Assembly: GCA_016213945.1 (NCBI GenBank)
Contig: JACQZF010000032.1
Span: 84,324 to 134,293, forward strand
Origin: Nitrospirota bacterium
GTDB taxonomy: Bacteria; Nitrospirota; Thermodesulfovibrionia; UBA6902
Direction of reading: 5' to 3'
DNA length: 49,970 nt
Below the pieces are notes generated by a model. That model was not told where the DNA came from. It ran no database searches and saw only the letters and a list, made by a program, of their open reading frames with translations. Every line of letters begins with the position of its first letter. Positions within the stretch are counted from its first letter, which is position 1. Both the position numbers and the translations under genes were made by a program. Positions 6,582-27,613 of the stretch are shown here, piece by piece.

Positions 6582-6626
6582 TTTCACCTTGATCTTTATT
6601 AATCTGAAAAATAATTTTAACCTGAA

Positions 6627-7556: not shown

Positions 7557-7578
7557 TTATATTTAAATATTTGAGACG

Positions 7579-7707
7579 CTTGCAAAAGCCTTAATTCGTC
7601 ATTCCCGAGGTCTTTATCGGGAATCCAGTATTCTTTAAACCAAAGACTTCTGGATACCCGCCTTCGCGGGTATGACGTCAAAGCGATTTCCTTGATACTT
7701 TTGCAAG
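7579..7707. repeat. Cruciform repeat copy A with outer inverted repeat
   Basis: The outer arms CTTGCAAAAG (7579-7588) and CTTTTGCAAG (7698-7707) are perfect. The core 7597-7677 has stem CGTCAT/ATGACG, a side hairpin CCCG..CGGG, a central stem ATCCAG/CTGGAT and a second side hairpin CCCG..CGGG. The same architecture recurs at 13495, 14113 and 25383. Confidence 0.75.
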
Positions 7708-7755
7708 AAGCTCTATTCTCTGTTTATTTGTCTCCGCGCCCTCTGTGGCTCAATC

Positions 7756-10305: not shown

Positions 10306-10427
10306 CAAATGAAGCAGATGTTGTGAGGAAATTTATTTGTCGATACCTTATACAGGCGAACGGCTGTTCGCCTGTTAATTAAATCTATCGAATTAAATAA
10401 ATTTTCGAACAATGTCTGCTTCATTTG
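10306..10427. repeat. Long near-perfect palindrome between the two radical SAM genes
   Basis: Arms 10306-10338 and 10395-10427 are close reverse complements (AAATGAAGCAGA... and ...TCTGCTTCATTT). Inside is a perfect hairpin, CAGGCGAAC (10353-10361) with GTTCGCCTG (10366-10374). The right arm includes the last codons and stop of the upstream radical SAM gene. The structure is MITE-like; no coding capacity is seen. Confidence 0.75.
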
Positions 10428-11668: not shown

Positions 11669-12336
11669 TGATCTCTTCCTTTGCGTAAGCTCGAAAATTC
11701 TTTTACCAGCTTGTCCTGCGGCATGTCCCTGCTCAATATGGCCCCGGCCTTATCAGCGTCACACAGAAAATCTTTATTCGCAGTGTTGTCTCTCATGAGA
11801 GTAAAATAAACAGCCTCATTTTCCCCTGTCATTCCCGCGAGCATCGCTGTGGTTTCCTCAGAGAGGAGCATCTCCGATGCCGTTGTAATTACCTTCAGCA
11901 GCGATTTCTTCGGGGCGGAAGAGAAAAACACCGGGCCCTGTAAACCAAAATGAATTGCCGCTTCTCCAAGCGGGCTTGACGGCAGCGTGTAAATAAAGAG
12001 ATTGCCCCTCGCCAGGGTCCGCCCGCAATTCACGTAGTCATTGAAATAATCAATGTCCGCCTGCAAAGAACCTGAATCGTTAGCGCCGATGGCACCGATG
12101 TCCTGCTTTAGCTCCGGCGAGTAATCAATTCCCGCGTCCTTCAATGCGAGCGCGATTGCGTAACAGGTCAGCTTTGATATTCTATCAAGCCTGCCGAAAT
12201 ATTTAAACGGATGGGAGAAGAGCTTTTTGGACAAGCCGCCAAAACCGGTATCGCCCTCATAGGCGACCCTGGTCCCCTTTGCGATGCAGCCGTATCCCCT
12301 CGCATCGATCCATCCTATGCCGTGAATGTTAATCAT
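11665..12336 (-). CDS. Chain-length-factor-like ketosynthase homologue without active-site Cys
   Basis: 223 residues matching the N-terminal half of ketosynthases (HGIGWIDARGYG, YAIALALKDAGI, IGANDSGSLQADIDYFNDYV, EAAIHFGLQGP). Where the nucleophilic Cys would stand, the sequence reads FSSAPKKS, so it cannot catalyse condensation itself. This matches the short KS-CLF partner proteins of aryl-polyene systems (ApeC type), which dimerise with a true ketosynthase and set chain length. It directly abuts the active ketosynthase gene: the stop of one and the ATG of the next are adjacent. That spacing supports an obligate heterodimer. Confidence 0.82.
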   Translation of the reverse strand: MINIHGIGWIDARGYGCIAKGTRVAYEGDTGFGGLSKKLFSHPFKYFGRLDRISKLTCYAIALALKDAGIDYSPELKQDIGAIGANDSGSLQADIDYFNDYVNCGRTLARGNLFIYTLPSSPLGEAAIHFGLQGPVFFSSAPKKSLLKVITTASEMLLSEETTAMLAGMTGENEAVYFTLMRDNTANKDFLCDADKAGAILSRDMPQDKLVKEFSSLRKGRDQ

Positions 12337-13467
12337 TTACCTAACCACCAGCGCCGTATTTATACCGCTGAAACCCGCGTTTGTTATGAGCGCCATTTTC
12401 TTATTAGCTAATGCGCGCTGTTTATTTGAAACCCATCCATGCGCGTCATCATCGGCAGCTTTTAGATTAACAGTAGGCGGAATTACTTTCTCCTTTAACG
12501 CCCTGAGCGCCGTTATTGTTTCAACAAGGCCCGCTGCCCCAAGTGTGTGCCCAATGGCCCCTTTGACTGAATAAACGGGCAACTTATTTTTAAACACGAA
12601 ATGAAATGCCCGCATCTCCATAGCGTCGTTATAAACCGTTCCAGTGCCATGCGCTGAGATGAAACTGATGCCGCCTTCATCCGCACCCGCGGACCTTAAT
12701 GCCTTGTTCACGGCCATTATCAGTCCGTCGCTCGTGCGCGAAGGGCCTGTCATGTGGTTGGCGTCGTCGCTCATCCCCCAGCCCGCTATTTCACCAATGA
12801 TATTTCTTTTCTCCCTTTTTGCCCTCGCATCGCTCATGAGCAGCGCATATGCCGCGGCCTCACCGAGGCTCAGGCCGCTCCTTTTTTTATCAAAAGGCCT
12901 TGCAGCAGATTTTTCGAGCGCCATCAGCGAAGAGAAACCCGCGTAAACAAATTCCGTGACGCTGTCGCAGGCAGTTACTAAAACGCAATCGCCGTGTCCG
13001 CTGCGTATCATCGACGCGGCCCTTGCCAATGCCGTTGATGATGAAGCGCAGGCAGCGGAGATGATCATTCCTCTGTCTTTGACCCCGGCGAGGGCCGAGA
13101 TCTTTTTCAGGAGTTTATGCGGATTGCTGTCTGAAGCCTCTCCCCTGTCTGTAAGAAATTTTTTCTCAAGCAGATCGATCTCTCCTTTTGTCGTTGCCAG
13201 AATAAGTTTTGCGTCTTCCGGTATCGATGCGGAATTGTCTTTGAACAGCAGCCTGAACATCTGCATCACCAGAGAATCTTTCTTAAGATATTTCAGGCCA
13301 TTAATTACGGCCGCATGATCAGACTGGAATGCTTTGGTGTTAAACCTGTCTATTTTTGAAATCGCCGTCGCGCCGGATCTTATGCCGTTCCAGAGCGCGT
13401 CAGTCCCCGCTCCAAACGCGGTGACCATATCGCATGAGACAACAACTGCTTTTGTTTCAGTTAACAT
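12337..13467 (-). CDS. Beta-ketoacyl-ACP synthase, ApeO-like
   Basis: 376 residues with an intact ketosynthase active site: Cys140 in SAACASS, His273 in SAHGTGT and His307 in GAIGHTLG. It would condense malonyl-ACP with the growing acyl chain. It is transcribed immediately ahead of the Cys-less chain-length-factor-like partner, as in aryl-polyene ApeO-ApeC pairs. It is distinct from the more FabF-like ketosynthase at 22470-23696, so the cluster has two active condensing enzymes. No Shine-Dalgarno site is obvious before the ATG. Confidence 0.9.
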   Translation of the reverse strand: MLTETKAVVVSCDMVTAFGAGTDALWNGIRSGATAISKIDRFNTKAFQSDHAAVINGLKYLKKDSLVMQMFRLLFKDNSASIPEDAKLILATTKGEIDLLEKKFLTDRGEASDSNPHKLLKKISALAGVKDRGMIISAACASSSTALARAASMIRSGHGDCVLVTACDSVTEFVYAGFSSLMALEKSAARPFDKKRSGLSLGEAAAYALLMSDARAKREKRNIIGEIAGWGMSDDANHMTGPSRTSDGLIMAVNKALRSAGADEGGISFISAHGTGTVYNDAMEMRAFHFVFKNKLPVYSVKGAIGHTLGAAGLVETITALRALKEKVIPPTVNLKAADDDAHGWVSNKQRALANKKMALITNAGFSGINTALVVR

Positions 13468-13579: not shown

Positions 13580-14062
13580 TTAACTGTGAAACTCTCCGGC
13601 CTTCCATTTCGTCCTGCATCTTTCAAGCAAAGGAGGCGATATTATGCAAACCTCTCCGGTCGCTGCGGCGGTCAGCACCTGCACCGTGTATCCGCTCGTT
13701 GCGATACTGCCGTCTTCCTTTAAAAGATAATACTCCGTGTTAATGCGTGAACTCTCGTCCCACACCAGGACGGCCCGTATTGTAAATACCTCCCCCAGAC
13801 AGAGGGGCTTCAGATAATCAATGTAAAGTTGAGCAATAGGGGCGCGCAGGCCAGACTCGTAAAAATCCTTATACGACAGGCCGCATACCCTGCCAAGCTC
13901 CTCGGAGCCTTCCTCAAAAAAGACCGGGTATCTGCCGTGCCAGACTATGCCAAGGAGATCAACTTCATTGAAATGAACACGCCGTTTAACTTCAACCACA
14001 ACCGGCTCCGGCGCTCCCTCGGCCCTCTTAAAATAATTTTTAGCTCTCCGCCTGTTTTCCAT
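13580..14062 (-). CDS. Acyl-CoA/ACP thioesterase, 4HBT hotdog (YbgC/ApeK-like)
   Basis: 160 residues with a single hotdog fold. The motif VDLLGIVWHGRYPVFFEEG corresponds to the catalytic Asp and the helix of YbgC-type thioesterases, with the D-x-x-G-x-V-x-H pattern kept. It probably releases or edits thioester-bound acyl intermediates of the cluster. Similar thioesterases occur in aryl-polyene clusters. The ends are flanked by cruciform repeats B and C. Confidence 0.85.
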   Translation of the reverse strand: MENRRRAKNYFKRAEGAPEPVVVEVKRRVHFNEVDLLGIVWHGRYPVFFEEGSEELGRVCGLSYKDFYESGLRAPIAQLYIDYLKPLCLGEVFTIRAVLVWDESSRINTEYYLLKEDGSIATSGYTVQVLTAAATGEVCIISPPLLERCRTKWKAGEFHS

Positions 14063-14222: not shown

Positions 14223-14606
14223 CTATTTAAATTCCACCTTTAGTTTCAACTCCGATATTTTTTTGTTGCCTTTGCTGAAGTAAGCCCTCAGGATAAAGTC
14301 AGCGTCTGTCTTGTCAATGCCTTTGCACATGCAGGTTATTTCTTCAGAAGGAGAAACGGTCGCGAAAAACTTCGCAAGGACGATCTCCTTCAGCACGACT
14401 TTTCTTTTTTTCCATTTCTCAAGCATTGTCACGGCGCACTGTATCTGGCATACGCCGGGCAGTATCTTGTTGCCTGGGAAATGGCCCTGAAAGCCTATGA
14501 ACTCTTCGGGGAAAGTAAAGCGCGCGATCAGCCCCGGGGTTTCTTTGACCGTCCCTTCTTCCAAGCCGCTCATGCATTTTTCGATCTCTCTTTTTATGGC
14601 ACTCAC
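14223..14606 (-). CDS. 3-Hydroxyacyl-ACP dehydratase, ApeI-like hotdog protein
   Basis: 127 residues. FQGHFPGNKILPGVCQIQ is the FabA/FabZ active-site helix with the catalytic His in GHFPG. It should remove water from 3-hydroxyacyl-ACP to give the 2,3-double bond needed for a conjugated polyene. The start is GTG at 14606, overlapping the upstream lipoprotein stop by four bases (GTGA), with AAGGAG at suitable spacing. A second dehydratase-like hotdog domain is fused to the radical SAM protein at 18477-19949, matching the two-dehydratase logic (ApeI and ApeP) of aryl-polyene systems. Confidence 0.88.
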   Translation of the reverse strand: MSAIKREIEKCMSGLEEGTVKETPGLIARFTFPEEFIGFQGHFPGNKILPGVCQIQCAVTMLEKWKKRKVVLKEIVLAKFFATVSPSEEITCMCKGIDKTDADFILRAYFSKGNKKISELKLKVEFK

Positions 14607-15268
14607 CCCTTGATCTCCTTCAATTTTATTGTCAGGCCGTAACCGTATTTGTAATTATCTAAGATAATACCTGAAGGATATATTTTTCCATCTTTCTGCC
14701 GGTATTCGTAATATGAAACGCGCCAGTTAAGCCTGTTGTCCTCATAATAATTTTTTTCGACCAGATGACCGCCTGCGCCTGCAAATATGTATTCAACGAC
14801 TCCCGCCCCAAGCGGTTCATCGAATATGACCTTGTACTTTTTCTTTTTTACTTCAGCCGAGGCAGATGGTGTCAGGTCAAAATAGACCCTCCTGATGTCC
14901 TCACCGACCGTGGCGGTGAAGTTGCCTTTCTTTGTGAATTGCTCCATCGCGAAATGGGAGTCTATCCGGTCTTTATCGCCTGCTAATTCAAACAGCTTTA
15001 CACCCATGGGATTTATGCAGACCACGGTGAAGGTTTTCTCCTTTGCATCTACCTTTATGTAGCCAAGCGCTGATAACTTGTTTCCGCTGTAATCAAAGAC
15101 GATCGAGTTTATGAGCATGAAATTTTCAGGCGAACGGTCCCTGAACTCCTCCACAAGCGTCCACGGGTCTGCACTTTCCATCGGGACATTAGAAGTCTTC
15201 TGGAAAGGAATGCCGGCGCATGAGGTGAGGCAAACAAATAAGATTAGGATTATCAGTAAACGTTTCAT
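14603..15268 (-). CDS. Outer-membrane-type lipoprotein of aryl-polyene-cluster kind (DUF3261-like)
   Basis: 221 residues with a lipoprotein signal (MKRLLIILILFVCL, lipobox LTSC). The mature part is beta-rich, with repeated short strands as in LolB-like carrier folds. Small lipoproteins of this sort (DUF3261) accompany the LolA-like protein and MMPL exporter in aryl-polyene clusters, and the three genes lie together here too. It probably receives the exported product at the outer membrane; that role is inferred. The ATG at 15268 is chosen over a codon at 15310 because only it gives a clean signal peptide. Confidence 0.75.
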   Translation of the reverse strand: MKRLLIILILFVCLTSCAGIPFQKTSNVPMESADPWTLVEEFRDRSPENFMLINSIVFDYSGNKLSALGYIKVDAKEKTFTVVCINPMGVKLFELAGDKDRIDSHFAMEQFTKKGNFTATVGEDIRRVYFDLTPSASAEVKKKKYKVIFDEPLGAGVVEYIFAGAGGHLVEKNYYEDNRLNWRVSYYEYRQKDGKIYPSGIILDNYKYGYGLTIKLKEIKG

Positions 15269-15276
15269 AGTATCTC

Positions 15277-17733
15277 TCAAATTGCCTTTCCTTTCACAAA
15301 CAACTCGCACAACTTCGGCACTACCATAACTGATGAAAAAAATCCCGCGCCAAGACCGATGACCATTGTGACTCCCACAGAAGACAGGGCGGGATGCTTT
15401 GCAAAGATCAGGACGCCTGCGCCGATCAGTGTGGTAACAGTACAGATCGTGATCGCCATTACCGTGCCCGTATTCATCTCTTTTCTGCTGCGGAATGTCA
15501 TGAATATTCCGTAATCCGAATTCAGTCCGATCACTAAAACACCCGCGATCATATTGGCCGCATTTATTGAAAGTCCTAAAAGGGCCATAAGGCCGAAAAG
15601 CCAGACAATGCTGGTCAGCGGGGGCACCAAGGCTATCAGGGTCTCTCTGAAATTAAAGAAACACAGGTAAGTCATCACGATCACGCTGATCGCGGATATC
15701 AATGTCATCAGTCTTAAATCTTTTGATACCACCTCAGACAGCGTGTTGGAGAGGACAGCGGCAGAGACAATATATGAACCCGGATAACGGCCGCTTATTT
15801 CATTCATTGAGCCCGCATATTCTTTTGTGTCAGGGAAAAATGACACAACGCGGTAGCCGTTATCTGTCTTTTGAACAAACCGTTCAAACAAACTGTTCCC
15901 GGATTTTTCTGAAAATCCCCCTGTATCCCCAGGACTTGTCTCACTCCTCCCCTTATTTAAGGGGAGGCCGGGTGGGGTTAATGGAGTCGAAGGAGGATCA
16001 TTATTGGCTTTTAGACTTTCAAAAAAAGGCTCAAACGCATTTTTCGAAAAATTATACTTTTTGCCTTCCTGTAAAAGCAGGCCCCTGAGTCTTTGTTTTC
16101 TCTCTTCCGACCAGAACTCATTCCAGCGCCCGGCGTTTTCCTTTCTGGTCTTTTCCGCCTGCCATAATGAAGCCATGCTGGTGAAGTTTTCCGCGCCGAC
16201 AGCCTGCACAGCATCTCTGTAGATCCTTTCATTCATCTCAAGCGCGTCCTCGTAATCTTTTGAGTTAACGACAAGCACCGCAGGTGTTTTCTCGCCCCCC
16301 CATGTCTTATGAAAACGCTCCTCGGCATTTATTATCTCTTTTTCCGTTCCGTCAATGTTTTTAATATCTCTCTCAAACTCAACGTGAAAGGCAAAGTAAG
16401 ACAATGCAAGGGTGATAAAAATCCAGAACAGGACAGCCAGTCCGTTTGAAATATTCCCCCTCTCAAGCTTTCCCGCGATGCGGTCCGCAAAGGAGGTTTT
16501 GCCGTCCGGCTTTAACATGAGATGGGGCAGCACAAATATGGAAATAAAAGTTGACACTACAATGCTGATGATCGTTACAACGGCAAGCTGGTTGTACCCT
16601 TTTATGCCGGAGAAAAAAAAGGCCAGGAAAATAGCTATCGTTGTCAATGCGCCAAAGCTGACGGGCTTTATTACATGCTTCACAAAGGGGGAGGGGTCGC
16701 TCTTGCCTTGCGCGGCAAAATAGACATGAGTTCCGTAATCAGTGGCAATCCCAGCGACTGTAGAGCCCAGACCGATCACCCAGTAGGAGAGTTTCCCAAG
16801 AAGTAAATACGACAGATCAATGGAAAACACAATCGCCACAACAGGTATCATGAATATCGTAACTGCGCTGAAATCCCTTATCACTACGCCGTATAAAAGC
16901 AGCATGGCGACAGCCGCGATAAAGCTGATAAAGACTATGTCCCTCTTTATCAGCTTCTCATTGCTGACAGTATGGGCGTGCCCGCAGATGATGTCCGCGC
17001 GGATGTAGCCTGGCAGGGTCGCGAGACGGTCTTTAAGTGAAGCTAATAATTTTTTTGAGCCTGCGGAATCTGTGATAGCGACCGCGGACTTCGCGATCAG
17101 CATTGCGTGTCTGCCGTCCCTGCTGACAAAATGCCCGTCCCTTATTTCCACATCATATCCGGTTGATGACGAAAGGGCCTTGAGTTTTTCAAGAACAAGC
17201 ATCCTCATGCCAAGCGGATCAGAACGTAACATGGAGCCGAGAAGCATACCTTGGGGTTTTAACAATTGCAGGTAGGCGTCATGGAGCTTTTGGGAAACGT
17301 GCTTCTGATCAATCCACGCGTCTATTTGAGAGAGTTCATTCCCGGAAACCATCTCCGGCAGGTTTTTGAACATGGCGTCGATGTCTTTGGCAACCGCGGA
17401 TTCAGATATCCCGACAGTGACCTCAGGAAACAGATTCCTGTCCAGTGAGCCGGCCAGCAGGTCTGTCTCTCTCAGGAGGTCGCTCACGTCTTTTTCAGGG
17501 GAAGTCAATTCCAGGGACACAACCACCTTGCCCGCGATATTTGAATTGCGGAAGAATTCCATGCTCCTGTCGAGGACCTCATTCTGGGGCAGGATATTGT
17601 CCATGCTGCTTTCGTATTCGACAAAATAAAGGGCTGCAAGGCTGATTATTATAAGCAGGATGAGGATGACCTGTACCGGTCTTTTGTTTCTTGCCGTGTA
17701 GTCGTAAAAACGGCCTGAGTATTTATCAAACAC
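15277..17733 (-). CDS. MMPL/RND-family lipid exporter
   Basis: About 818 residues with two copies of the RND half: an N-terminal TM helix, a large periplasmic loop, then a TM bundle, repeated. MMPL-type proteins move large lipids across the inner membrane using the proton gradient. The GTG at 17733 overlaps the end of the lolA-like gene by eight bases and precedes the first TM helix (VQVILILLIIISLAALYFV); a start at 17823 would add 30 non-conserved residues. The second periplasmic loop holds a proline/glycine-rich stretch (STPLTPPGLPLNKG), encoded by a palindrome like those in mnmG. Confidence 0.88.
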   Translation of the reverse strand: MFDKYSGRFYDYTARNKRPVQVILILLIIISLAALYFVEYESSMDNILPQNEVLDRSMEFFRNSNIAGKVVVSLELTSPEKDVSDLLRETDLLAGSLDRNLFPEVTVGISESAVAKDIDAMFKNLPEMVSGNELSQIDAWIDQKHVSQKLHDAYLQLLKPQGMLLGSMLRSDPLGMRMLVLEKLKALSSSTGYDVEIRDGHFVSRDGRHAMLIAKSAVAITDSAGSKKLLASLKDRLATLPGYIRADIICGHAHTVSNEKLIKRDIVFISFIAAVAMLLLYGVVIRDFSAVTIFMIPVVAIVFSIDLSYLLLGKLSYWVIGLGSTVAGIATDYGTHVYFAAQGKSDPSPFVKHVIKPVSFGALTTIAIFLAFFFSGIKGYNQLAVVTIISIVVSTFISIFVLPHLMLKPDGKTSFADRIAGKLERGNISNGLAVLFWIFITLALSYFAFHVEFERDIKNIDGTEKEIINAEERFHKTWGGEKTPAVLVVNSKDYEDALEMNERIYRDAVQAVGAENFTSMASLWQAEKTRKENAGRWNEFWSEERKQRLRGLLLQEGKKYNFSKNAFEPFFESLKANNDPPSTPLTPPGLPLNKGRSETSPGDTGGFSEKSGNSLFERFVQKTDNGYRVVSFFPDTKEYAGSMNEISGRYPGSYIVSAAVLSNTLSEVVSKDLRLMTLISAISVIVMTYLCFFNFRETLIALVPPLTSIVWLFGLMALLGLSINAANMIAGVLVIGLNSDYGIFMTFRSRKEMNTGTVMAITICTVTTLIGAGVLIFAKHPALSSVGVTMVIGLGAGFFSSVMVVPKLCELFVKGKAI
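15915..15985. repeat. In-frame palindromic insertion in the MMPL gene
   Basis: CCTCCCCTT (15946/7-15954) pairs perfectly with AAGGGGAGG (15959-15967). It encodes a low-complexity peptide of the same flavour as the MnmG insert (PLxPPGLPLNKG). The reading frame is kept. Confidence 0.65.
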
Positions 17734-18391
17734 GCCTCTTGACCTCAAAGTCCGGACCTTCAATGGGGGCGTCAAAGATGGTGTCATTGAAAATGATGGT
17801 GGTGCTGTCTCCGCTGACCTCAAGTATCCTGATCTGCTTTAAATACCTTTCATCTTCCCTGAGTCCGATGGTAATATTTTTAATGATCTTCCCGGCGGCA
17901 TTATTTGCCTTTGGCGTAAATTCAAAAACAAGCGGTGACTTCTTTAAAACACGCACATCATAATCTTTAAGGAGAGAAATATAATCCCCTGAAAACCACA
18001 CTGTCAACTGATTAAGCACGTTCTGAAAAACAGGATTGCCGGACAGCGCAATTTCCTGTACACGGTCAGTGTCTTCATCCCACTGGCGGATGGATTTATC
18101 GGTAATGACCACGGAATACCTGACCGGTTCGTCAACGTGCCACGCGATCCTGCCGGGTTTCTGAAGGTAGATCCTGCCTTTCATAACGATCTTGCTTTGA
18201 AAGATCGCCAGGTCCTTCTCCTGGATAAAATCCGTCTTCAAGCTTTTAAAGGCGGAGACATTTTCCCCGAGCTTGCGCAGCATAGCGGTAATCTCAGCTG
18301 CATCGTCTGCCGCTGTTAAGCCGGATGCGCAGAGGACCAGCAGGAAGAAAGAAAGCAGCGGTAATGTAATAAAAATATTGTTGACTTTCAT
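17726..18391 (-). CDS. LolA-like periplasmic lipoprotein carrier
   Basis: 221 residues: a signal peptide (hydrophobic core LPLLSFFLLVLCASGLTA), then the LolA fold with FIQEKDLAIF, GRIYLQKPGRIAWHVDEP and the DDRQWDED-like turn (KSIRQWDEDTDRV). Housekeeping LolA ferries lipoproteins to the outer membrane. Dedicated paralogues in aryl-polyene clusters are thought to carry the pathway product, and its linkage to the MMPL exporter supports that here. Whether the organism has another LolA cannot be seen. No Shine-Dalgarno site is apparent. Confidence 0.85.
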   Translation of the reverse strand: MKVNNIFITLPLLSFFLLVLCASGLTAADDAAEITAMLRKLGENVSAFKSLKTDFIQEKDLAIFQSKIVMKGRIYLQKPGRIAWHVDEPVRYSVVITDKSIRQWDEDTDRVQEIALSGNPVFQNVLNQLTVWFSGDYISLLKDYDVRVLKKSPLVFEFTPKANNAAGKIIKNITIGLREDERYLKQIRILEVSGDSTTIIFNDTIFDAPIEGPDFEVKRRV

Positions 18392-18476: not shown

Positions 18477-19949
18477 CTATTTATCGCCATTATGCCAGAC
18501 CGTTATCTCGCCTCTGGCAATTAAATCTTCTCCTTTAAAAATTTCTCCTTTTATTATCCCGAACTCGCTGAACCTGGCGACCTTGGAAACAGACACAAGC
18601 AATTTGTCGCCTGCGTAAGCGCTGCCTAATATCTCAAGATTTTTTATTCCAAGCAGAAGTCCCTGTGATTTCGGCCCGCCGTTGCCCGCGTGCTTAAGCC
18701 CGTCCTGGGCGGCTATCGCCTGTGAAATAATTTCCGGATAAGACGCTTCATTAAGCCTTCCGTCTTCCCCGGCAAAGATCACGTCTGCCGAAATCTCCGC
18801 CTCTGAAAGAGACGCCCTCTCTTTTACTTCAATAAGTTTGTTTACCATGAGCATGGGCGGTTTGTGGGGAACGAGCTTGGCGGCCTCGGTCGGGAGGCAG
18901 ATAATATCTTCCTGCCTGTCCAGGTTTTCCCAGCACAGCGGATCAGAGGCCAGGTAATCGCCTGTCATCTGATAAGCCGCCCCGCGGCATCCGTAGCATA
19001 CACTCTTTTGGGCGCATTTCCCGCAGGGGCCTTTTATTGTGTTCCTGTAATTTCTGAGGTCCTGTATGACTTCGCTGTCCAATATGATCTCAGAAAGTTT
19101 CTTTTCTTTTATATTGCCGACCGGGATAGTAACACCAACGCAGGGCGTTACGTCTCCGTAAACGTTGACAGCGCAGGAAAACTGGTGCCTGAGACATTGT
19201 TCACCTACCAGCGGAGGCTGAGGTCTCCAGTCGAAGCCGAATTTATTACGGTCAATATCCGCGATCCGCTGAAACAACTCCCAGACCTGCCGGGGATCGG
19301 CTGACAGGAAATCGTTTTCCCTGGCCCTTCCCTGAGGCGTTATCATCTCAAAGTAGGGAGAAATATTTTGCTCCCTCAGCCACTCCCACATGTGGACAAG
19401 CTCGCCGATATTCTGGCGGCAGATTATCGTGCTTATTCCAAGGGGACTTTTATGGGGAAAACCTTCTTCCTTCAGAATGTTGAAGGCAGCCTGTATTTGC
19501 CTGTACGCCCCCTTTTTTCCAGACAGGATATCCTGAAGCTTCTCGTCGGCCGTATTCATTTTCAGGACCACCGTGACATTGTTTTCCGCTAATATTCTTG
19601 CCGGGTCATGCGTCATATTGGCGCCGTTTGTAAAAAGCTCGATATCCAGGTCGAGTCCTTTAATGAAACCTATCATTTCCATTATGTGGGGATACAGCAT
19701 GGGCTCACCGCCGAGGATGATAATTTTTTTGGCGCCTAAGTCCTTTGCCTGCTGTATTACGCCGCGGCTTTCTTCGGCTGTCATCTCCTGTTTGCCGTTG
19801 ACGCCGTTCTGCACGTAGCAGTAAACGCACTTGAAATTACAGTCGCGGTTAAATTCTATCTCCATGGACAGAAGGCCGCCTTTACCGGCGACCTGTTCTA
19901 TTTCTGATGCGGAAAATTCCGATCCATATATGCGTGTTTGACATCTCAT
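18477..19949 (-). CDS. Radical SAM/SPASM enzyme fused to an ApeP-like hotdog dehydratase domain
   Basis: 490 residues. The radical SAM motif C37-x3-C41-x2-C44 and GGEPML (SAM binding) sit in residues 30-240. A Cys-rich SPASM domain with auxiliary cluster ligands (CLRHQFSC, GPCGKCAQKSVCYGC, DPLCW) spans about 250-345. From about 352 the protein changes to a hotdog domain (LVPHKPPMLMVNKLIEV, PEIISQAIAAQDG, LLLGIKNLEIL, ITVWHNGDK) resembling ApeP/FabA-like dehydratases of aryl-polyene clusters. Its ATG overlaps the ligase stop (ATGA). The fusion ties a radical reaction directly to an acyl-ACP intermediate; the reaction is unknown. Confidence 0.87.
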   Translation of the reverse strand: MRCQTRIYGSEFSASEIEQVAGKGGLLSMEIEFNRDCNFKCVYCYVQNGVNGKQEMTAEESRGVIQQAKDLGAKKIIILGGEPMLYPHIMEMIGFIKGLDLDIELFTNGANMTHDPARILAENNVTVVLKMNTADEKLQDILSGKKGAYRQIQAAFNILKEEGFPHKSPLGISTIICRQNIGELVHMWEWLREQNISPYFEMITPQGRARENDFLSADPRQVWELFQRIADIDRNKFGFDWRPQPPLVGEQCLRHQFSCAVNVYGDVTPCVGVTIPVGNIKEKKLSEIILDSEVIQDLRNYRNTIKGPCGKCAQKSVCYGCRGAAYQMTGDYLASDPLCWENLDRQEDIICLPTEAAKLVPHKPPMLMVNKLIEVKERASLSEAEISADVIFAGEDGRLNEASYPEIISQAIAAQDGLKHAGNGGPKSQGLLLGIKNLEILGSAYAGDKLLVSVSKVARFSEFGIIKGEIFKGEDLIARGEITVWHNGDK

Positions 19950-21247
19950 TCCTGATTTATTCTCCTGTCTATAAAACGTATGGCTTTGCGCGAATTCCCG
20001 GCGAAAAGCTGTTTCCTGACCTCTTCCCCGCTTGATATTATAACGTCGGGCCTTACCCTCAAATGCGCCTGAAGTATGTCCATGATCCTTTTTGCCGAAC
20101 AGGAATCGCCGTTTACCGAAACATATACCTTCAGTACATCGGAGAGGTCAAAGTCGCTTGTTACGGAAACATAGTATTCAGCAACTTCGGGGATTTCGTC
20201 AAGTGCCGAGTATACAGCCTGCGGATAAAGGGTCGTACCCCTGTATTTTATCATCTGCTTTTTTCTTCCCAGAATGGGGCCAAGACGGGGCGACTTCCTC
20301 CCGCAATTGCACGGCCCGTCTATCAGGAAACTCATGTCGCCTGTCCTGAACCTGAGCAAAGGCATCCCTTCGATAAAAAAAGTTGTCACCACAACTTCCC
20401 CGGCTTCACCCAGCGGCAGGACCTCTCCATTGTCATTGACGATCTCCACTATCGCCAGTTCGGGATGAAGGTGTCCGCCGTTCTGCGCTGTGCATTCGCA
20501 GAATGTAGTGATCGTCTCGGAAGAGGCATACGTTGAAAACACCCTGGCCCCCCAGATTTCCTCCAGGTACGCGCCCATTTTCAATAAATATAAATTTTTG
20601 TCCCTGAGCGGTTCCCCGATACAGATAAATTTTTTCACGCCGGTTTCACGGGGGTCTATTCCCTTTGATTGCAGAAACAGTCCCAGCTTGTGCAAAAATG
20701 ACGGGACTCCCACGATCGCGGTCGGCTTCATGCGCTGAATAATTTCCAAGTGACTCTCAACGCTGTTCAGTCCGTTTCTGACAGCGGCAGCCCCGAGCGC
20801 CCTTATCCCTAAAAAATACGCAAGCCCCGCGACAAAACACCTGTCTATCGTGCATGTAAGAAGGACAATATCATCCGGGGTCATGCCGCATGAGGCGAAA
20901 GATATTTCCTCATTGTAAGCCAGCCGTCTCAGGTCGTTTTCGGTATACATTATTTTTGTCGGTTTGCCGGTAGTCCCTGACGATAAAACAATGTCCACGA
21001 TCTTTGACATCGGGACCGCAAGCAGTTCGTCATTATGGTTTTCAAAAGCGGATTTACCTGTAAACGGCAAAGCGCTCAGATTCTCAAGGGTTATTTTGTT
21101 TAACGCTATACCGTCCAAAGTCCTGCGGTAAAATGGAGAGTTTCCGTAAATGTAAGCGAGATGGTTTTGCAAAAGTCTCTCCTGCACGGCCTTAATTTCG
21201 TCAGGCGTGGAGAATTCAATATTGCTGTATTGAGAAAAATCTTTCAT
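19946..21247 (-). CDS. Phenylacetate-CoA-ligase-like acyl-activating enzyme
   Basis: 433 residues of the AMP-forming ligase superfamily, PaaK-like subgroup. The P-loop is LSSGTTGKPTK, with later motifs STYASSE, LLRFRTGD and GRKKQMIKYRG. A Cys-rich patch (CNCGR) matches PaaK-type enzymes. It should adenylate a carboxylic acid starter and transfer it to CoA or ACP, the role ApeH plays in aryl-polyene synthesis. The starter is unknown; no ammonia-lyase gene for cinnamate or coumarate is visible. GGAGG lies seven bases before the ATG, which overlaps the acyltransferase gene by four bases. Confidence 0.87.
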   Translation of the reverse strand: MKDFSQYSNIEFSTPDEIKAVQERLLQNHLAYIYGNSPFYRRTLDGIALNKITLENLSALPFTGKSAFENHNDELLAVPMSKIVDIVLSSGTTGKPTKIMYTENDLRRLAYNEEISFASCGMTPDDIVLLTCTIDRCFVAGLAYFLGIRALGAAAVRNGLNSVESHLEIIQRMKPTAIVGVPSFLHKLGLFLQSKGIDPRETGVKKFICIGEPLRDKNLYLLKMGAYLEEIWGARVFSTYASSETITTFCECTAQNGGHLHPELAIVEIVNDNGEVLPLGEAGEVVVTTFFIEGMPLLRFRTGDMSFLIDGPCNCGRKSPRLGPILGRKKQMIKYRGTTLYPQAVYSALDEIPEVAEYYVSVTSDFDLSDVLKVYVSVNGDSCSAKRIMDILQAHLRVRPDVIISSGEEVRKQLFAGNSRKAIRFIDRRINQE

Positions 21248-21993
21248 GCCGCGCCCTCCATCGAGTCAAGCTCCCGGCCCATAATTTCCCGCACCCTGTT
21301 TTTTAATGTGAACACGTTCGCGCCCTTATAATCCTGCGGCTGAATAGCAGGCAGCCTGCGTATTTTTATTGTCCCCGGCTTCATAAGCCATGAACCTTTA
21401 GGGGGCATGTTCTCATTCCCGGTGATGCAAATAGGGACTATGGAGGCATTTGTCTGCAGCGCGAGCCGGAAAGCGGAACCATGGAAACTGCCCATTTCCC
21501 TTCCTCCTGACCGCGTCCCCTCAGGGAAGAATATTATAGAGACTTTATCGTCAAGCAGCTTCGCGGCCTTCTCAAGAAACAGTTCATGGTCCATCACCCT
21601 TATATTCAGATACCCTGCAAACCGGGCAAAAAAACCGAGGACGGGAATGCGGAAAGGCCAGATATTTACAACCTGAATTGCTTCATGAGGGAGAACTGAC
21701 ATCAGGAAGGCGTCTGACGCGGACCTGTGGTTGCTGACGAAAATATACGGCCCCTGAGAATTACCTTTTGAATGGTCTTCATAGCGGACCCTGACAAAAG
21801 GGAAGGGGACCAGGGCCATTCCCTTTCCGTACCAGCTTATGGCGCGGCGAAATCTTTTCATTACGTAGCGTTTGGGCGCAACCAGCGCTATCAGGGTCAC
21901 AAAGATTATTAAAACAGGAATTGCTATCATGGAAAAAATCATAAAAGCACTATACAAATAGAGATTCAAGAAAAATAGTATAAAATATTTCAT
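21244..21993 (-). CDS. PlsC-like 1-acylglycerol-3-phosphate acyltransferase family protein
   Basis: 249 residues. The N-terminal TM helices are followed by catalytic NHRSASD (the NH-x4-D motif) and the FPEGTRS substrate-binding motif. PlsC-family enzymes acylate lysophospholipids. Together with the LpxL-like protein at 6627-7556 the cluster has two unrelated acyltransferases, which could esterify the product into a glycerolipid. It starts six bases after the ACP stop and lacks a clear ribosome-binding site. Confidence 0.88.
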   Translation of the reverse strand: MKYFILFFLNLYLYSAFMIFSMIAIPVLIIFVTLIALVAPKRYVMKRFRRAISWYGKGMALVPFPFVRVRYEDHSKGNSQGPYIFVSNHRSASDAFLMSVLPHEAIQVVNIWPFRIPVLGFFARFAGYLNIRVMDHELFLEKAAKLLDDKVSIIFFPEGTRSGGREMGSFHGSAFRLALQTNASIVPICITGNENMPPKGSWLMKPGTIKIRRLPAIQPQDYKGANVFTLKNRVREIMGRELDSMEGAA

Positions 21994-21999
21994 TGCTAA

Positions 22000-22266
22000 T
22001 TACGAACTTTTTCCCGCGTCTTCATTTTTTATTGCTGAAATAAAGTCGTAAATGTCCTGCAGGGTCCTTATGTTTCTGACCTTCTCCTCATTCCGTATCT
22101 TGACCCCGAAGCTTTTCTGGAGCGCTACCACAAGATCAACAATATCAAGGCTGTCCAGGCCGAGGTCGGTGAATATGTGCGCGCCCGGCGTCAATTTGTC
22201 CTTTTCTATTTCAAATGATTCCTCAAACACCTTGTTGGTCTTATCAATGATCTCTTGCTCGGTCAT
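22000..22266 (-). CDS. Acyl carrier protein (second of two)
   Basis: 88 residues; Ser39 in GLDSLD is the phosphopantetheine site. AGGAGGAATAA precedes the ATG, a strong ribosome-binding site. It lies directly ahead of the acyltransferase and ligase genes, so the ligase may load this ACP. It differs clearly from the ACP at 5264-5539. Confidence 0.93.
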   Translation of the reverse strand: MTEQEIIDKTNKVFEESFEIEKDKLTPGAHIFTDLGLDSLDIVDLVVALQKSFGVKIRNEEKVRNIRTLQDIYDFISAIKNEDAGKSS

Positions 22267-22469: not shown

Positions 22470-23696
22470 TTATATTTTTCTGCACACCAATGAAGCGTTA
22501 ATGCCGCCGAAGGCAAAGCAGTTTTTAAGAATTGTGCTGACTTCTTTAGCAACGGGTTTTGTAATATGGTTTAATCCTGCACAGTCAGGACTGACCTCGT
22601 CCAAATTCAGTGTCGGGTAGATAATATTTTTTTCCATCATCAGCAAAGACGCGATCAGCTCAATTGCCCCGGAGGCGCCGAGCGTATGCCCGATGTGGCC
22701 CTTCAGGCTGCTTACCGGAACAGCATCACCGAATATTTCTTTTATGGCCCCGGCCTCCTCAGTATCACCCTGCGGCGTTCCGGTGGCGTGGGCGTTTATA
22801 TAGTCTATCTTCTCCGGTGTCATTTGAGCATTTTGCAAGGCTTCATTCATGCATTTTATCATGGATCTTTTATCCGACTGGCTCATGTGGGAGCCGCTCC
22901 CGCAGGTGCTGTAGCCGGTGATCTCCGCGTAGATCTTCGCATTTCTTTTAATGGCATGTTCGTATTCTTCCAATACTAATATCCCGCTCCCCTCTCCGCA
23001 GACCAGCCCGTCGCGTTCTTTATCAAACGGGCGCGGGGTCTTTTGCGGGGTTTGGTTGTATTTGGCAGAAGTTGCAAAGAGGACATCAAAAGAGCCGGTA
23101 ACAGTGGGATGAAGCTCCTCAGCCCCTCCGCATAAAATTATATCCTGCCTTCCAAGCCTTATTAAATCATATCCCGCGCCGACAGCCTGAAGGCCTGAGG
23201 CGCAGGCCGCTGCCGTAGCCGCTATGTACCCTGTCAATCCGAGGTACTGGGCCACATTGGCTGAAGCTGTATGCGACATGCACTGAAAGAACATCGTGGA
23301 GGGCAGCTTAGTCAGGTCTCTGTCAGGCAGCATCATTTCAAATACATCATTAATGCTCCTTGAGCTCCCCATGGTCGAGCCGATAACGCACCCGGTCCTG
23401 CCGGAAGATAATCCGGCGGGCGCTATTTCAGAATCGGCAAGCGCCTGTTCCGCTGCCTGCACAGCGAAGATGCTCATGCGTCCCATTGAGCGCCTGCTCT
23501 GCCGGGGGATTTTCTTTTCATCTTTTAATTCAGCAGGGGCCGCCACATGACTTCTCATGCCGATATACTTAGTCCACTCCTCCATAAAGCGGACAGCGCT
23601 CCTGCCCGTTTCAAGCCCTTCAATAAAGGAGCCGATGCTGTTTCCTAAAGGTGTGACGACTCCGATTCCTGTGATCACAACACGTTTTAATTGCAT
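22470..23696 (-). CDS. FabF-like beta-ketoacyl-ACP synthase (ApeR-like)
   Basis: 408 residues, a full-length FabF-type enzyme with Cys165 in AAACASGL, His303 in NAHATGTPQGD and His337 in GHIGHTLGASG. It condenses malonyl-ACP with acyl-ACP. This is the second active ketosynthase of the cluster and carries no partner protein, so it may initiate or finish the chain as ApeR is proposed to do. Palindromes separate it from both neighbours. Confidence 0.92.
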   Translation of the reverse strand: MQLKRVVITGIGVVTPLGNSIGSFIEGLETGRSAVRFMEEWTKYIGMRSHVAAPAELKDEKKIPRQSRRSMGRMSIFAVQAAEQALADSEIAPAGLSSGRTGCVIGSTMGSSRSINDVFEMMLPDRDLTKLPSTMFFQCMSHTASANVAQYLGLTGYIAATAAACASGLQAVGAGYDLIRLGRQDIILCGGAEELHPTVTGSFDVLFATSAKYNQTPQKTPRPFDKERDGLVCGEGSGILVLEEYEHAIKRNAKIYAEITGYSTCGSGSHMSQSDKRSMIKCMNEALQNAQMTPEKIDYINAHATGTPQGDTEEAGAIKEIFGDAVPVSSLKGHIGHTLGASGAIELIASLLMMEKNIIYPTLNLDEVSPDCAGLNHITKPVAKEVSTILKNCFAFGGINASLVCRKI

Positions 23697-23708
23697 AACA
23701 TTCTATTT

Positions 23709-23813
23709 ACCACAGAGGCACGGAGACACAGAAAAATATAAATTAGAAATTAAACAAAATCTTTTCGCTTGTGTCACTTCTTACTCTTCTCAGTGCCTCT
23801 GTGTCTCTGTGGT
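23709..23813. repeat. GAGGCAC-family inverted repeat downstream of the CrtI-like gene
   Basis: ACCACAGAGGCACGGAGACA... (23709-23732) pairs with ...TGTCTCTGTGGT (23790-23813) with few mismatches. The right arm reaches the stop codon of the oxidoreductase (23813-23815). Confidence 0.7.
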
Positions 23814-25312
23814 CAACTCAAACTCTTGCTCAAGAATTTATTATACTGCTCCTCTTCCAGAATATACCGCCCGACGAGAAACGAAGACATCATGGCGCCC
23901 ATTATCCCCGGTAAAAGGGAGCTTTGTCCGGCGGCGTATAAATTGCGGAGGGGGAGCTTGCCGATCAGATTGTACTGGCCGATCTTCTGTTTTACTCCAT
24001 AAGCAGAGCCATCAGGACTGTTCAGGTAATCTCTAAATGTAAGCACGGACGCTGAGTTAATAACTTTTATCCGGTCTTTATATCTGGGGAACGCGTTATA
24101 AATACGGCCTGTTATATTTTCAACCCTCTCTTCTTTGTAATCCCCGTAAGACTGCGACCTCCTGCCGGTCTTTGAATCCTTCCAGTTCTCAACGTGCTCA
24201 ATGAAGGACGGTTCAAACGCGTTAATGGTTTTGTATATTTTCCCCTTCACTTCTTCTATTGATTTAATGATCACCAATGCCGAAGCCCCTGTGTTCGCCG
24301 GATCTAAAAGCTGATTAACATCTGTGTGAGGAAAGATGGAGAGTATATTTGAATTAAAATCGGGTTCATCATATTCTTCATCCAGGACCGCAAAGACCGT
24401 AAAGAAACCCGCAGAGGATTCAAATGATGTGACACGGTCAACAAATGCCTTGCTTAAATGCTGCTCCGGCAGGACCTTTAATATTTCGCCCGGATGTATT
24501 GTAAATATACAGTTTTCAGCCGTGACCTCTTCGCCTGTATTAAGGATGAACCTGCCCACCTTTTTATTGTAGACGTCTTCCAGCCTTGCAATGTATTTGC
24601 CGCAGCGTATTTCTATATCGGAGCTTTTAAATTTTGCCTCAAAGGCCTTTATGAAGGCCTCCCCGCCGTCTTTGACCCGCGCGACCGACTCATAAAGTCC
24701 GAGACACATCCTGCTGTGATTGGCAAAAGAGATCTCCTTAGGCATCACGCCGTAGCACATCGCAAAACCGGACAGCAGCGCCTTTAAAACAGGGTTCCCG
24801 GTCAGCCCGTTTAATACCTCATCAAGGCTCAGAAAATCTTCATTCATAGGGCTGTGTAACGCGGTGAGCGCCTGCAGATTCATGGAGGGCGTGTTAGCGC
24901 AGACCTGCTGGACTTTCTCAAAATACCTGTCAAGTGCCGACACTTCCCCGGGGAAATAGTCTTTAAATTTTTTCTTTAATTTTTCAAGCCCGTACGGGAT
25001 CTCATAGAGCCTGCCTTCCGGTTCAAAGAAAAAGGAGTTTGCGTTCTCTTCAGATAAAAATACCGGCTGGATCAGGTCCCGGATACCAAGCACCGACAGC
25101 ATGTCGTACAGCAGGCCGTTTTTATGAAGCCCCCCGGTGAAATGGAAACCTGTATCAAAAGGGACGCCCTTTTTATAAAACCGTGACACAGAGCCGCCGA
25201 TGCGCGGGCTCTTTTCAAGCAGCAGCACCTTGCGCCCGTTCATCCCGAGGATAAGCGCCATCGTCAATCCGCTGATTCCGCTTCCAACAACTATGTCGTC
25301 ATATTTTTGCAT
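23813..25312 (-). CDS. Phytoene desaturase/CrtI-like FAD-dependent oxidoreductase
   Basis: 499 residues. The N-terminal dinucleotide-binding GSGISGL, the LLEKSPRIGG strand and FDTGFHFTGG mark the CrtI/CrtISO/phytoene-dehydrogenase superfamily. The C-terminus (LYAAGQSSLLPGIMGAMMSSFLVG) is the usual FAD-binding end. Family members desaturate, isomerise or saturate conjugated polyenes. It is not part of the core aryl-polyene set, so here it probably alters the double-bond pattern of the product. Genes of this family also appear in published candidate clusters for anammox ladderane lipids. No carotenoid backbone genes are visible nearby. Confidence 0.87.
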   Translation of the reverse strand: MQKYDDIVVGSGISGLTMALILGMNGRKVLLLEKSPRIGGSVSRFYKKGVPFDTGFHFTGGLHKNGLLYDMLSVLGIRDLIQPVFLSEENANSFFFEPEGRLYEIPYGLEKLKKKFKDYFPGEVSALDRYFEKVQQVCANTPSMNLQALTALHSPMNEDFLSLDEVLNGLTGNPVLKALLSGFAMCYGVMPKEISFANHSRMCLGLYESVARVKDGGEAFIKAFEAKFKSSDIEIRCGKYIARLEDVYNKKVGRFILNTGEEVTAENCIFTIHPGEILKVLPEQHLSKAFVDRVTSFESSAGFFTVFAVLDEEYDEPDFNSNILSIFPHTDVNQLLDPANTGASALVIIKSIEEVKGKIYKTINAFEPSFIEHVENWKDSKTGRRSQSYGDYKEERVENITGRIYNAFPRYKDRIKVINSASVLTFRDYLNSPDGSAYGVKQKIGQYNLIGKLPLRNLYAAGQSSLLPGIMGAMMSSFLVGRYILEEEQYNKFLSKSLS

Positions 25313-25520: not shown

Positions 25521-26243
25521 CTACATCGCCAGTCCGCCGTTGACGCCGATGACCTGTCCGTGGATATACATGTTTTCTTCCGTGCACAGGAAGTTCACTA
25601 CTGAGGCAACATCCTCGGACCTGCCAACCCGGTTCAGGGGAATTAACGGCAGCACCTGCGCCTTCGGGATTTTCTCTGTCAGTTCCGTTTCAATGAAACC
25701 GGGCGCAACCACATTGACAAGAATATTTTTCTTTCCCACTTCACGCGCTAACGCCTTGGCCGCGCCGATCAGTCCCGCCTTTGAAGCGGAATAATTTACC
25801 TGCCCCGCATGGCCTATCTGTCCGGACGTTGACGATACAATAACAATGCGTCCCTTCTTGGCCCGTAACATTGAAAACAATACCGTGCGTGTCACGTTGT
25901 AAAACCCGTCAAGATTTGTTGAGAGGACGGAATCCCACTCATCTCTTGTCATCCACACTAACAAATTATCGCGGGTGATCCCCGAATTGTACACGAGCAC
26001 ATCAGGAGCGAAGTCCTCAACTCTCGTGGCCAGTGCGTCTTCCGTCTCTTTGTAGCTTGAGACGTCAAACGGTATCAAATCGCAGGCCACGCCTGAAGCT
26101 TCTATCTCCGACTTAACTTCTTTTGCGGCCTCGTGATTGCTCTTGTAGGTCAGCCAGATATTAAATCCGGATTTAGCCAGACTTAAAGCTATCGCGCGCC
26201 CGATGCCTCGGCTTCCGCCGATTATTAATGCAGTCTTTGCCAT
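25521..26243 (-). CDS. 3-Oxoacyl-ACP reductase, FabG/ApeQ-like
   Basis: 240 residues, a short-chain dehydrogenase. GGSRGIG binds NADPH, and the catalytic Ser (VSSTSGQ) and Y-x3-K (YSASK) are in place. The NVVAPGFIETELT and GVNGGLAM segments are typical of FabG. It would reduce 3-ketoacyl-ACP for the cluster. It is the first gene of the minus-strand cluster and has a good sigma70-type promoter just upstream. No Shine-Dalgarno site is seen. Confidence 0.93.
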   Translation of the reverse strand: MAKTALIIGGSRGIGRAIALSLAKSGFNIWLTYKSNHEAAKEVKSEIEASGVACDLIPFDVSSYKETEDALATRVEDFAPDVLVYNSGITRDNLLVWMTRDEWDSVLSTNLDGFYNVTRTVLFSMLRAKKGRIVIVSSTSGQIGHAGQVNYSASKAGLIGAAKALAREVGKKNILVNVVAPGFIETELTEKIPKAQVLPLIPLNRVGRSEDVASVVNFLCTEENMYIHGQVIGVNGGLAM

Positions 26244-26543: not shown

Positions 26544-27524
26544 TTACCCGCCGATCTTGGACATGGGGTTTATGCGATCGGGAGAATCCATATTTTCTTT
26601 GATCAGGTGCCGCTCCGGTTTTATTTTGACAGCCTTGAGGAACAACTCTTCGATCTCGTCGTCGGAGGCGCCGTTTCTCATCGGGGTTTTGATATCAATT
26701 TCAACCTTTGAAAAGAGACACGGCCTGATCTTCCCGTTAGAGGTGAGGCGCAGCCTGTTGCAGAAGCCGCAGAAATGGTCGCTGACAGGGCTGATGATCC
26801 CGATAACTCCTTTTGCGCCCTTTATCCTGTAATTTCTTGACGGCCCTTTGCCTTTGAACTCATAACTCTCCAGGCTGCCCAGAGGAGATATTATTTCCAT
26901 GATCTCCGCCGCGCTTACGCACTTTTCTTTCTGCCAGGTTTCACCGGAAGACACGGGCATAAATTCTATAAACCTTATGTGATAGTCCTTCTCAAGCGTT
27001 AGGGCCGCAAAAGAAAGTATCTCATCGTCATTTATCCCCCGGATGGGGACAACATTGATCTTCACCGGCGAAAGCCCGGCCCTCTCCGCCTCGCTTATCG
27101 CCGCAAGGACGCGCCTGATATCGCCCCCTTTTGTTATGGCCCTGTATCTTTCGGCATCCATCGTATCGAGGCTTATATTTACACGGGCAAGGCCTGCATT
27201 CTTTAATTCTCCGGCAAGCTCAGGCAGCAGGATGCCGTTTGTGGTAAGGCTCAGGTCATGTATGCCGGTTTGTTTGATCGCTGAGATCAGGTCAAGGATA
27301 TTTTTTCTCAGAAGGGGCTCGCCGCCTGTTATCCTGACTTTTCTCAGGCCGTGTTTATGCGCGATGCGCACGAACCTGACAATTTCCCCGTCAGTCATGA
27401 TCTCAGCATCAGCAAAATTCCTCAGCCCCTTTGACGGCGTGCAGTACACGCATTTCAGGTTGCACTTGTCCGTGATGGATATCCGGAGATAATCAATGCG
27501 CCGGTTGTATGAATCTTTTATCAT
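26544..27524 (-). CDS. moaA: GTP 3',8-cyclase MoaA
   Basis: 326 residues. It catalyses the first step of molybdenum cofactor synthesis, turning GTP into 3',8-cyclo-GTP. The N-terminal radical SAM cluster is C21-x3-C25-x2-C28. The C-terminal second cluster uses the Cys residues of FCGFCNRLRL and IRPCLF. The protein ends in Gly-Gly, as MoaA requires. A palindrome separates it from the MoeA-like gene upstream. Confidence 0.96.
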   Translation of the reverse strand: MIKDSYNRRIDYLRISITDKCNLKCVYCTPSKGLRNFADAEIMTDGEIVRFVRIAHKHGLRKVRITGGEPLLRKNILDLISAIKQTGIHDLSLTTNGILLPELAGELKNAGLARVNISLDTMDAERYRAITKGGDIRRVLAAISEAERAGLSPVKINVVPIRGINDDEILSFAALTLEKDYHIRFIEFMPVSSGETWQKEKCVSAAEIMEIISPLGSLESYEFKGKGPSRNYRIKGAKGVIGIISPVSDHFCGFCNRLRLTSNGKIRPCLFSKVEIDIKTPMRNGASDDEIEELFLKAVKIKPERHLIKENMDSPDRINPMSKIGG

Positions 27525-27535
27525 AGTTGTTTATA

Positions 27536-27606
27536 TCCACAGATTCCACAGATAAAATACAGCGGCTTCAAAAAAGAGAATCTGCGGCATCTGTGTAATC
27601 TACGGA
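27536..27606. repeat. CACAGATT-family inverted repeat between moaA and the MoeA-like gene
   Basis: TCCACAGATTCCACAGAT (27536-27553) is matched by ATCTGTGTAATCTACGGA (27589-27606), 14 of 18 paired. Confidence 0.6.
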
Positions 27607-27613
27607 CTAAAAA

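Follow-up and report, generated by a model that had tools for sequence, protein, structure and literature searches.

Domain structure of the fusion protein

The window analysed here, a stretch of 49,970 nucleotides of Nitrospirota DNA, carries on its minus strand an open reading frame (18477-19949) encoding a protein of 490 residues. The frame is intact, with an ATG start and no internal stop, and holds three domains. An earlier note on this DNA, which left the strand unstated, had read a single frame encoding a radical SAM core with a C-x3-C-x2-C motif, then a SPASM domain, then a hotdog domain; Pfam and a family profile bear this out. Residues 1-345 (window 18915-19949) form the radical SAM/SPASM part, and residues 346-490 (window 18477-18914) an ApeP-like hotdog half-site that includes Glu406. 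The Pfam matches to Radical_SAM (residues 31-187, 7.2e-22) and SPASM (residues 252-312, 2e-8) are both above cut-off, and the CxxxCxxC motif is C37-x3-C41-x2-C44. In an alignment of 31 full-length homologues (A1) these three cysteines are invariant, as are seven cysteines of the SPASM region (252, 270, 309, 312, 318, 321 and 339) and the hotdog residues E406 and Q410.

By its motif and both domains the protein is, on sequence grounds, a member of the radical SAM/SPASM superfamily. The nearest named SPASM families are AhbD and NirJ2, whose substrates are tetrapyrroles. Its NCBIfam scores against the named families AhbD, NirJ2 and PqqE lie far below the curated cut-offs, the best being 144.1 bits against 500. 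The generalisation in the earlier note, that SPASM enzymes usually act on peptides, is thus of no help here, and a peptide substrate for this SPASM enzyme found no support.

For the C-terminal domain, the Pfam match of the single fusion sequence to the ApeP-like family (residues 356-450, E=0.023, below cut-off) is too weak to decide. Searches of the PDB with phmmer match residues 355-483 to FabZ/ApeP chains with E about 1e-3, and the hotdog domain alone matches FabZ/ApeP structures with E from 3e-4 to 3e-3. The assignment is secure because the profile of the A1 family matches 6QSR_B, the ApeP chain of the ApeI:P complex, with E=5.8e-14 over fusion residues 354-485; the hotdog call thus survives a profile search. 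The AlphaFold2 model of the fusion has a mean pLDDT of 87.6 and a pTM of 0.87, and the latter, together with the short junction between the parts, suggests a defined domain arrangement. When the model is compared with known structures by Foldseek, the radical part matches the SPASM enzymes SkfB, SuiB, anSME and PqqE. The C-terminal part matches 6QSR_B, 'Dehydratase Heterocomplex ApeI:P' (E=1.3e-9, TM 0.77 by target length), and the model also retrieves the anammox FabZ 8AYI (E=4.9e-9).

The surrounding gene cluster

The fusion belongs to a 16-gene type II polyketide synthase (PKS) cluster, all on the minus strand, whose order is nearly unchanged across phyla. The cluster begins with a FabG/ApeQ-type ketoreductase (25521-26243; NCBIfam FabG, above cut-off) and a phytoene-desaturase-like flavoprotein (23813-25312; Pfam Amino_oxidase, with NCBIfam CrtD-like at 9.4e-23, below cut-off). 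These are followed by a β-ketoacyl synthase of KS3 type (22470-23696; Pfam ketoacyl-synt, 1.9e-42), an acyl carrier protein (ACP) (22000-22266; Pfam PP-binding, 1.9e-9), a 1-acyl-glycerophosphate-type acyltransferase (21244-21993; Pfam Acyltransferase, 1.8e-21) and a FlxY/PaaK-like carboxylate ligase (19946-21247; NCBIfam FlxY, 464 bits, below the cut-off of 520). The end of the ligase gene overlaps the start of the fusion gene by 4 bases (19946-19949).

After the fusion come a LolA-like periplasmic carrier (17726-18391; Pfam LolA, 2.4e-19), an MMPL/RND exporter (15277-17823; Pfam MMPL, 0.0053, below cut-off, with the same place in syntenic loci), a LolB-like lipoprotein of the DUF3261, ApeN type (14603-15310; Pfam DUF3261, 5.4e-5), an ApeI-like hotdog protein that is described below, and an ApeK-type 4HBT thioesterase (13580-14062; Pfam 4HBT_2, 5.7e-13). 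The ketosynthase KSa (12337-13467), whose best NCBIfam match is a sub-threshold one to AmcF of cispentacin synthesis, stands next to a short KS-like protein (11665-12336; Pfam ketoacyl-synt, 4.1e-6, partial) that is probably a chain-length factor (ApeC-like). Two B12-binding radical SAM proteins complete the cluster: BRS2 (10421-11668; Pfam B12-binding and Radical_SAM) and BRS1 (8909-10279), which scores 629 bits against TIGR04072, rSAM_ladder_B12 (cut-off 360). One ACP was found among the open reading frames of at least 80 residues examined, and neither an enoyl reductase nor a methyltransferase was seen in the window cluster. The earlier note mentions neither this setting, a type II PKS cluster of aryl-polyene/ladderane-like character that includes two B12 radical SAM enzymes, nor the kinship with an anammox SPASM protein described below.

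Beyond the cluster, on the same strand, lie genes for a glycosyltransferase 2-DUF2062 protein (7756-9018), an LpxL-like acyltransferase (6627-7556) and a polysaccharide deacetylase, together spanning 5646-9018. To judge by orientation, the glycosyltransferase gene is probably the end of the same operon, to which the LpxL-like gene probably also belongs. A polysaccharide deacetylase also adjoins the anammox cluster. MoaA and MoeA-like genes upstream (26544-28678, same strand) are apparently unrelated to the cluster, and a promoter and terminator scan of the window gave a yield about equal to chance.

A probable split dehydratase site

Both a gap-free alignment with ApeP and the family alignment put Glu406 at the catalytic glutamate position of the hotdog dehydratases. 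When positions were scored against what we take to be the sequence of E. coli FabZ, all 36 fused hotdogs had Glu at this position and none (0/36) had the GHF(P) histidine motif. The ApeI-like hotdog protein of the same cluster (14223-14606, minus strand) has His42 in a GHFPG motif and Gln at the usual Glu position. Its Pfam match to the ApeI-like family is below cut-off (0.0012); its AlphaFold model has a pLDDT of 92.9, and Foldseek leads from it to FabZ. Among the ApeI-like partners at the fusion loci the His (His42, invariant in alignment A2) is present in 24 of 24, and the Glu is kept at 2 of 23 loci, with Gln in most. The two half-sites are thus complementary, and for this reason we take the fusion hotdog to be the Glu-bearing half, hence one subunit, of a predicted split dehydratase of the ApeI:ApeP type, with its His half encoded at 14223-14606. 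In the dehydratases of aryl polyene synthesis, ApeI and ApeP form a heterodimer that has one active site (PMC8041823), and the fusion of ApeI to the ligase ApeH in Acinetobacter (PMC8041823) provides a precedent for fusing a dehydratase half.

A complete FabZ or FabA is ruled out by the absence of the GHFPG histidine. The ApeP/FabA-like dehydratase features described in the earlier note are therefore ApeP-like but do not make up a whole enzyme; the AlphaFold model matches 6QSR_B, yet its active site is only half of one, Glu406 without the His. Where a fusion locus extends far enough downstream, the ApeI half is encoded about 4-5 kb past the fusion; the exceptions are L054 and L095. For L054, and also for L052, another contig of the genome carries this half. 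For L095 (genome G116) no ApeI was seen in the 18 kb of the locus, and the rest of the genome gave only a weak match. Measured against five relatives, dN/dS is 0.06-0.09 over the SPASM part of the protein and 0.10-0.12 over its hotdog, and both halves are under purifying selection.

Distribution of the fusion

Fused matches, 43-96% identical, occur in Nitrospirota, Desulfuromonadales, Omnitrophota and PVC bacteria. Besides the window itself, the match continues into the hotdog in one frame in 14 of 60 related genomes, with 52-96% identity, and the same is true of about 30 contigs from Nitrospirota, Desulfuromonadales/Deltaproteobacteria, Omnitrophota, Verrucomicrobiota, Kiritimatiellota, Lentisphaerota and Planctomycetota. 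In a wider draw from the window's phylum the fusion was found in 11 of 296 genomes and a standalone SPASM protein in 3 of the 296. A match is present in 27 of 289 genomes of the phylum of Victivallis, 23 of the 27 spanning both domains in one frame, and the isolate Victivallis vadensis DSM 14823 carries the fusion. The plasmids and viral contigs searched gave no relatives.

A sequencing frameshift merging two separate genes, considered in the earlier note, or an assembly error with the same effect, is refuted by these single-frame, full-length copies in several phyla and in many independent assemblies, one of them of an isolate, and by the low dN/dS (0.06-0.12) across both halves; its probability is negligible. 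Like the earlier note, which knew of no described enzyme with this architecture, we found no description of it in the open-access literature searched. Nor does that literature contain an earlier case of a type II PKS dehydratase that incorporates a radical SAM/SPASM enzyme, so that this would be the first.

Separate and alternatively fused relatives

The same SPASM family occurs in other arrangements. In a Desulfobulbaceae genome (G062) a standalone SPASM protein lies behind the ligase, and a separate hotdog gene (HD) occurs in the order FabG-HD-LolA-MMPL-ApeI-TE-KSa, matching that of the fused cluster. The hotdog protein is ApeP-like, with Glu present and His absent, and matches fusion residues 347-489 with E of 4e-18. 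At one further locus (L059, genome G063) SPASM and hotdog are likewise a separate pair. In a planctomycete genome (G350; contig C11, L096:9905-11302) the domain joined to a SPASM protein of this family is instead an acyl carrier protein (PP-binding, 8.4e-10, above cut-off) with the serine motif GLDSLGLMELL. The gene lies near KS, B12 radical SAM and thioesterase genes, and its SPASM part is closest to the anammox SPASM (48-50%). It is a single case, no further fusion of this kind being found in 75 genomes of the same class. That one SPASM family has been joined both to half a dehydratase and to an ACP points towards an acyl substrate bound to a carrier.

A distinct cluster in Desulfobulbaceae and Chromatiaceae (L061-L079) has a standalone SPASM with ACP, KS and acyltransferase genes, and often a B12-rSAM-like protein of about 496 residues; the queries used found no hotdog near these standalone SPASM genes. 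A further genome, G888, had appeared from its open-frame length to hold a third architecture, and proved to have a standalone SPASM with upstream read-through. A tree of the SPASM domains, the root of which is not fixed, gives three sets: a standalone set that contains the anammox proteins, the standalone proteins of Desulfobulbaceae and Chromatiaceae, and the fused proteins. The tree is compatible with a single origin of the fusion (p-AU 0.09), though it does not demonstrate one; loss in the Desulfobulbaceae group would be an alternative to separate gains.

Relationship to the anammox ladderane-candidate cluster

Candidate genes for ladderane synthesis were listed in 2009, and the pathway has remained unsolved since; heterologous expression of the 34 candidates gave no ladderanes (PMC2649909, PMC4790861). 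Rattray et al. (2009) listed the SAM radical enzymes of the cluster and saw synteny with Desulfotalea (PMC2649909), and ladderane-like clusters have been reported in non-anammox phyla with no product assigned (PMC9902471). Five genomes of our planctomycete draw, which are anammox genomes since they contain hydrazine synthase alpha (PF18582), have a standalone SPASM protein 46-47% identical to that of the window. Their locus runs KS, non-canonical KS, methyltransferase, KS, short KS, ligase, SPASM, B12-rSAM, and then FabG, ACP, FabZ, methyltransferase, MMPL, phytoene-desaturase-like protein and glycosyltransferase. This is the order from kuste3349 to kuste3335 in PMC4790861, and by position, rather than by sequence, the SPASM protein should thus be Kuste3343 and the TIGR04072 protein Kuste3342. 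The TIGR04072 scores in the anammox loci are 440 and 418 bits (cut-off 360). Each anammox FabZ copy retains Glu as well as His, so that the dehydratase of anammox bacteria is whole and separate.

An anammox-type ladderane-candidate cluster occurs in synteny in three genomes of Nitrospirota that are not anammox bacteria, including two from the genus of the window: L127 (G002:C8:1500-21499), L128 (G007:C131) and L129 (G039:C118:8000-27999). In L127 and L129 the synteny runs from the glycosyltransferase to an ATP-grasp gene, and in L128 it stops near the contig edge after the B12-rSAM gene. These clusters include a methyltransferase and a non-canonical KS at the Kuste3347/3348 positions. Hydrazine synthase alpha is absent from all three genomes. 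A HrcA-like gene on the G002 contig has counterparts of 70-71% identity in genomes of its own genus and none in the anammox genomes that were searched, which makes mis-binning of this contig unlikely. Judged by their genes, these Nitrospirota are possible non-anammox makers of ladderanes.

Proposed function and alternatives

We consider it probable that the fusion serves as the ApeP-type half of a heterodimeric 3-hydroxyacyl-ACP dehydratase split between two proteins, and that the radical SAM/SPASM enzyme at the N-terminus of the fusion performs a radical step on an ACP-bound chain. The fusion hotdog would contribute Glu406 to one shared dehydratase site, and the His of this site would come from the ApeI-like protein, whose gene lies in the same operon about 4 kb further downstream. 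This site would remove water from an ACP-bound chain built by the KS/CLF, FabG and ACP. Because no enoyl reductase was seen in the cluster, a polyene should build up, as happens when aryl polyenes are made. In radical SAM chemistry a 5'-deoxyadenosyl radical takes a hydrogen atom from the substrate. The SPASM domain, held at the dehydratase, would do so from the ACP-bound hydroxyacyl or enoyl chain, so that the radical step would take place as the chain is elongated and would not have a free acid as its substrate; candidate outcomes are desaturation, C-C bond formation or isomerisation. The two B12 radical SAM enzymes and the phytoene-desaturase-like flavoprotein would act afterwards, and the finished acyl group would be transferred to a lipid and moved to the outer membrane by the LolA, MMPL and DUF3261 proteins. 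A radical step on an ACP-bound chain, already suggested in the earlier note, is thus also our best reading, towards which both kinds of fusion point. Against it stands the occurrence of SPASM proteins without a hotdog in Desulfobulbaceae and Chromatiaceae, from which it follows that the fusion is not needed for SPASM chemistry. That the ACP fusion is known from one case, and that the L095 locus has a fusion but no ApeI seen nearby, also weigh against it.

The adjacency of ligase and SPASM in most fused clusters, as in the anammox clusters, could also count against this explanation and indicate work on the starter acid. The SPASM enzyme would then act before elongation and modify this acid, either free or once the FlxY-like ligase has loaded it on to ACP, and the hotdog would do no more than keep the enzyme in the complex. 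The adjacency is found in the window, where the two genes overlap by their 4 bases, and in L074, L059 and L016-L018, and AhbD and NirJ2, the nearest SPASM families, work on small non-peptide molecules. The fusion partner is, however, a dehydratase half, which becomes active only after the first elongation, and the ligase in front is missing in the Desulfobulbaceae set and in the fused loci L040, L041 and L057; the ACP fusion is compatible with either view. We regard action on the starter acid as rather unlikely.

Gene fusions often mirror co-expression and can reflect co-regulation only. With standalone SPASM relatives in existence, the hotdog might provide no more than docking to ApeI or ACP, or a fixed stoichiometry, while the radical domain acts elsewhere, for example on a peptide or a lipid head group. 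The invariance of the catalytic Glu (36/36) and the fact that this SPASM family has also been joined independently to an ACP make such a lack of shared chemistry improbable. The missing GHFPG histidine could also be a sign of decay, with the hotdog a pseudo-dehydratase of structural role only. This is very improbable given the complementary His half in the same operon, the invariant Glu, a dN/dS of about 0.10 and the one shared site of the characterised ApeI/ApeP pair.

If the probable reading, a radical step at a split dehydratase, is true, the substrate range of SPASM enzymes widens to carrier-bound acyl chains. The fusion ties a relative of a ladderane-candidate radical enzyme to a dehydratase, hence to the 3-hydroxyacyl/enoyl-ACP class of substrates, which can be assayed with purified proteins, and is a concrete clue to where radical chemistry enters the ladderane pathway. 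Victivallis vadensis DSM 14823 is a cultured carrier of the fusion that can be used for product analysis. A bolder proposal, which we put forward only tentatively, is that the SPASM enzyme, both when fused and at the Kuste3343 position, works at the dehydratase while elongation is under way, with the ACP-bound chain as its substrate, that in anammox bacteria this is part of the making of the cyclobutane ladder, and that the Nitrospirota with the anammox-type cluster make ladderanes too.

Comparison with known systems

The closest parallel for the dehydratase is the ApeI:ApeP system (PDB 6QSR; PMC8041823). Here too the His is on the ApeI-like half and the Glu on the ApeP-like half, and the genes are part of a type II PKS cluster with KS/CLF, KR, ACP, ligase, TE, LolA, RND and DUF3261 proteins. 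The window differs in that its ApeP half carries the N-terminal radical SAM/SPASM enzyme and its cluster adds two B12 radical SAM enzymes and a phytoene-desaturase-like protein, with a single ACP found and no methyltransferase seen. When set against the table of aryl polyene clusters in PMC8253772, the KS, CLF, KR, DH pair, ligase, TE, acyltransferase, LolA, RND and DUF3261 entries are all matched, so that the window cluster resembles an aryl polyene cluster gene for gene, with radical SAM enzymes added. Aryl polyene clusters have two ACPs, against the one found here among the frames of at least 80 residues. The AhbD, NirJ2 and PqqE-type enzymes share the SPASM architecture of the fusion but not its hotdog domain.

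With the anammox cluster kuste3335-3352 (PMC2649909, PMC4790861) the window shares the SPASM enzyme, the TIGR04072 B12 radical SAM enzyme, which adjoins the SPASM gene in anammox, the ligase (Kuste3344 position), the KS and short KS, FabG, ACP, MMPL and the phytoene-desaturase-like gene. In contrast, the anammox SPASM stands alone and the FabZ has both His and Glu, and the anammox cluster has two methyltransferases and a non-canonical KS (3348 position) that the window cluster lacks. The anammox-specific FabZ (7QV0, 8AYB, 8AYD, 8AYI) has the hotdog fold in common with the fusion, whereas the FabZ of the anammox loci is unfused.
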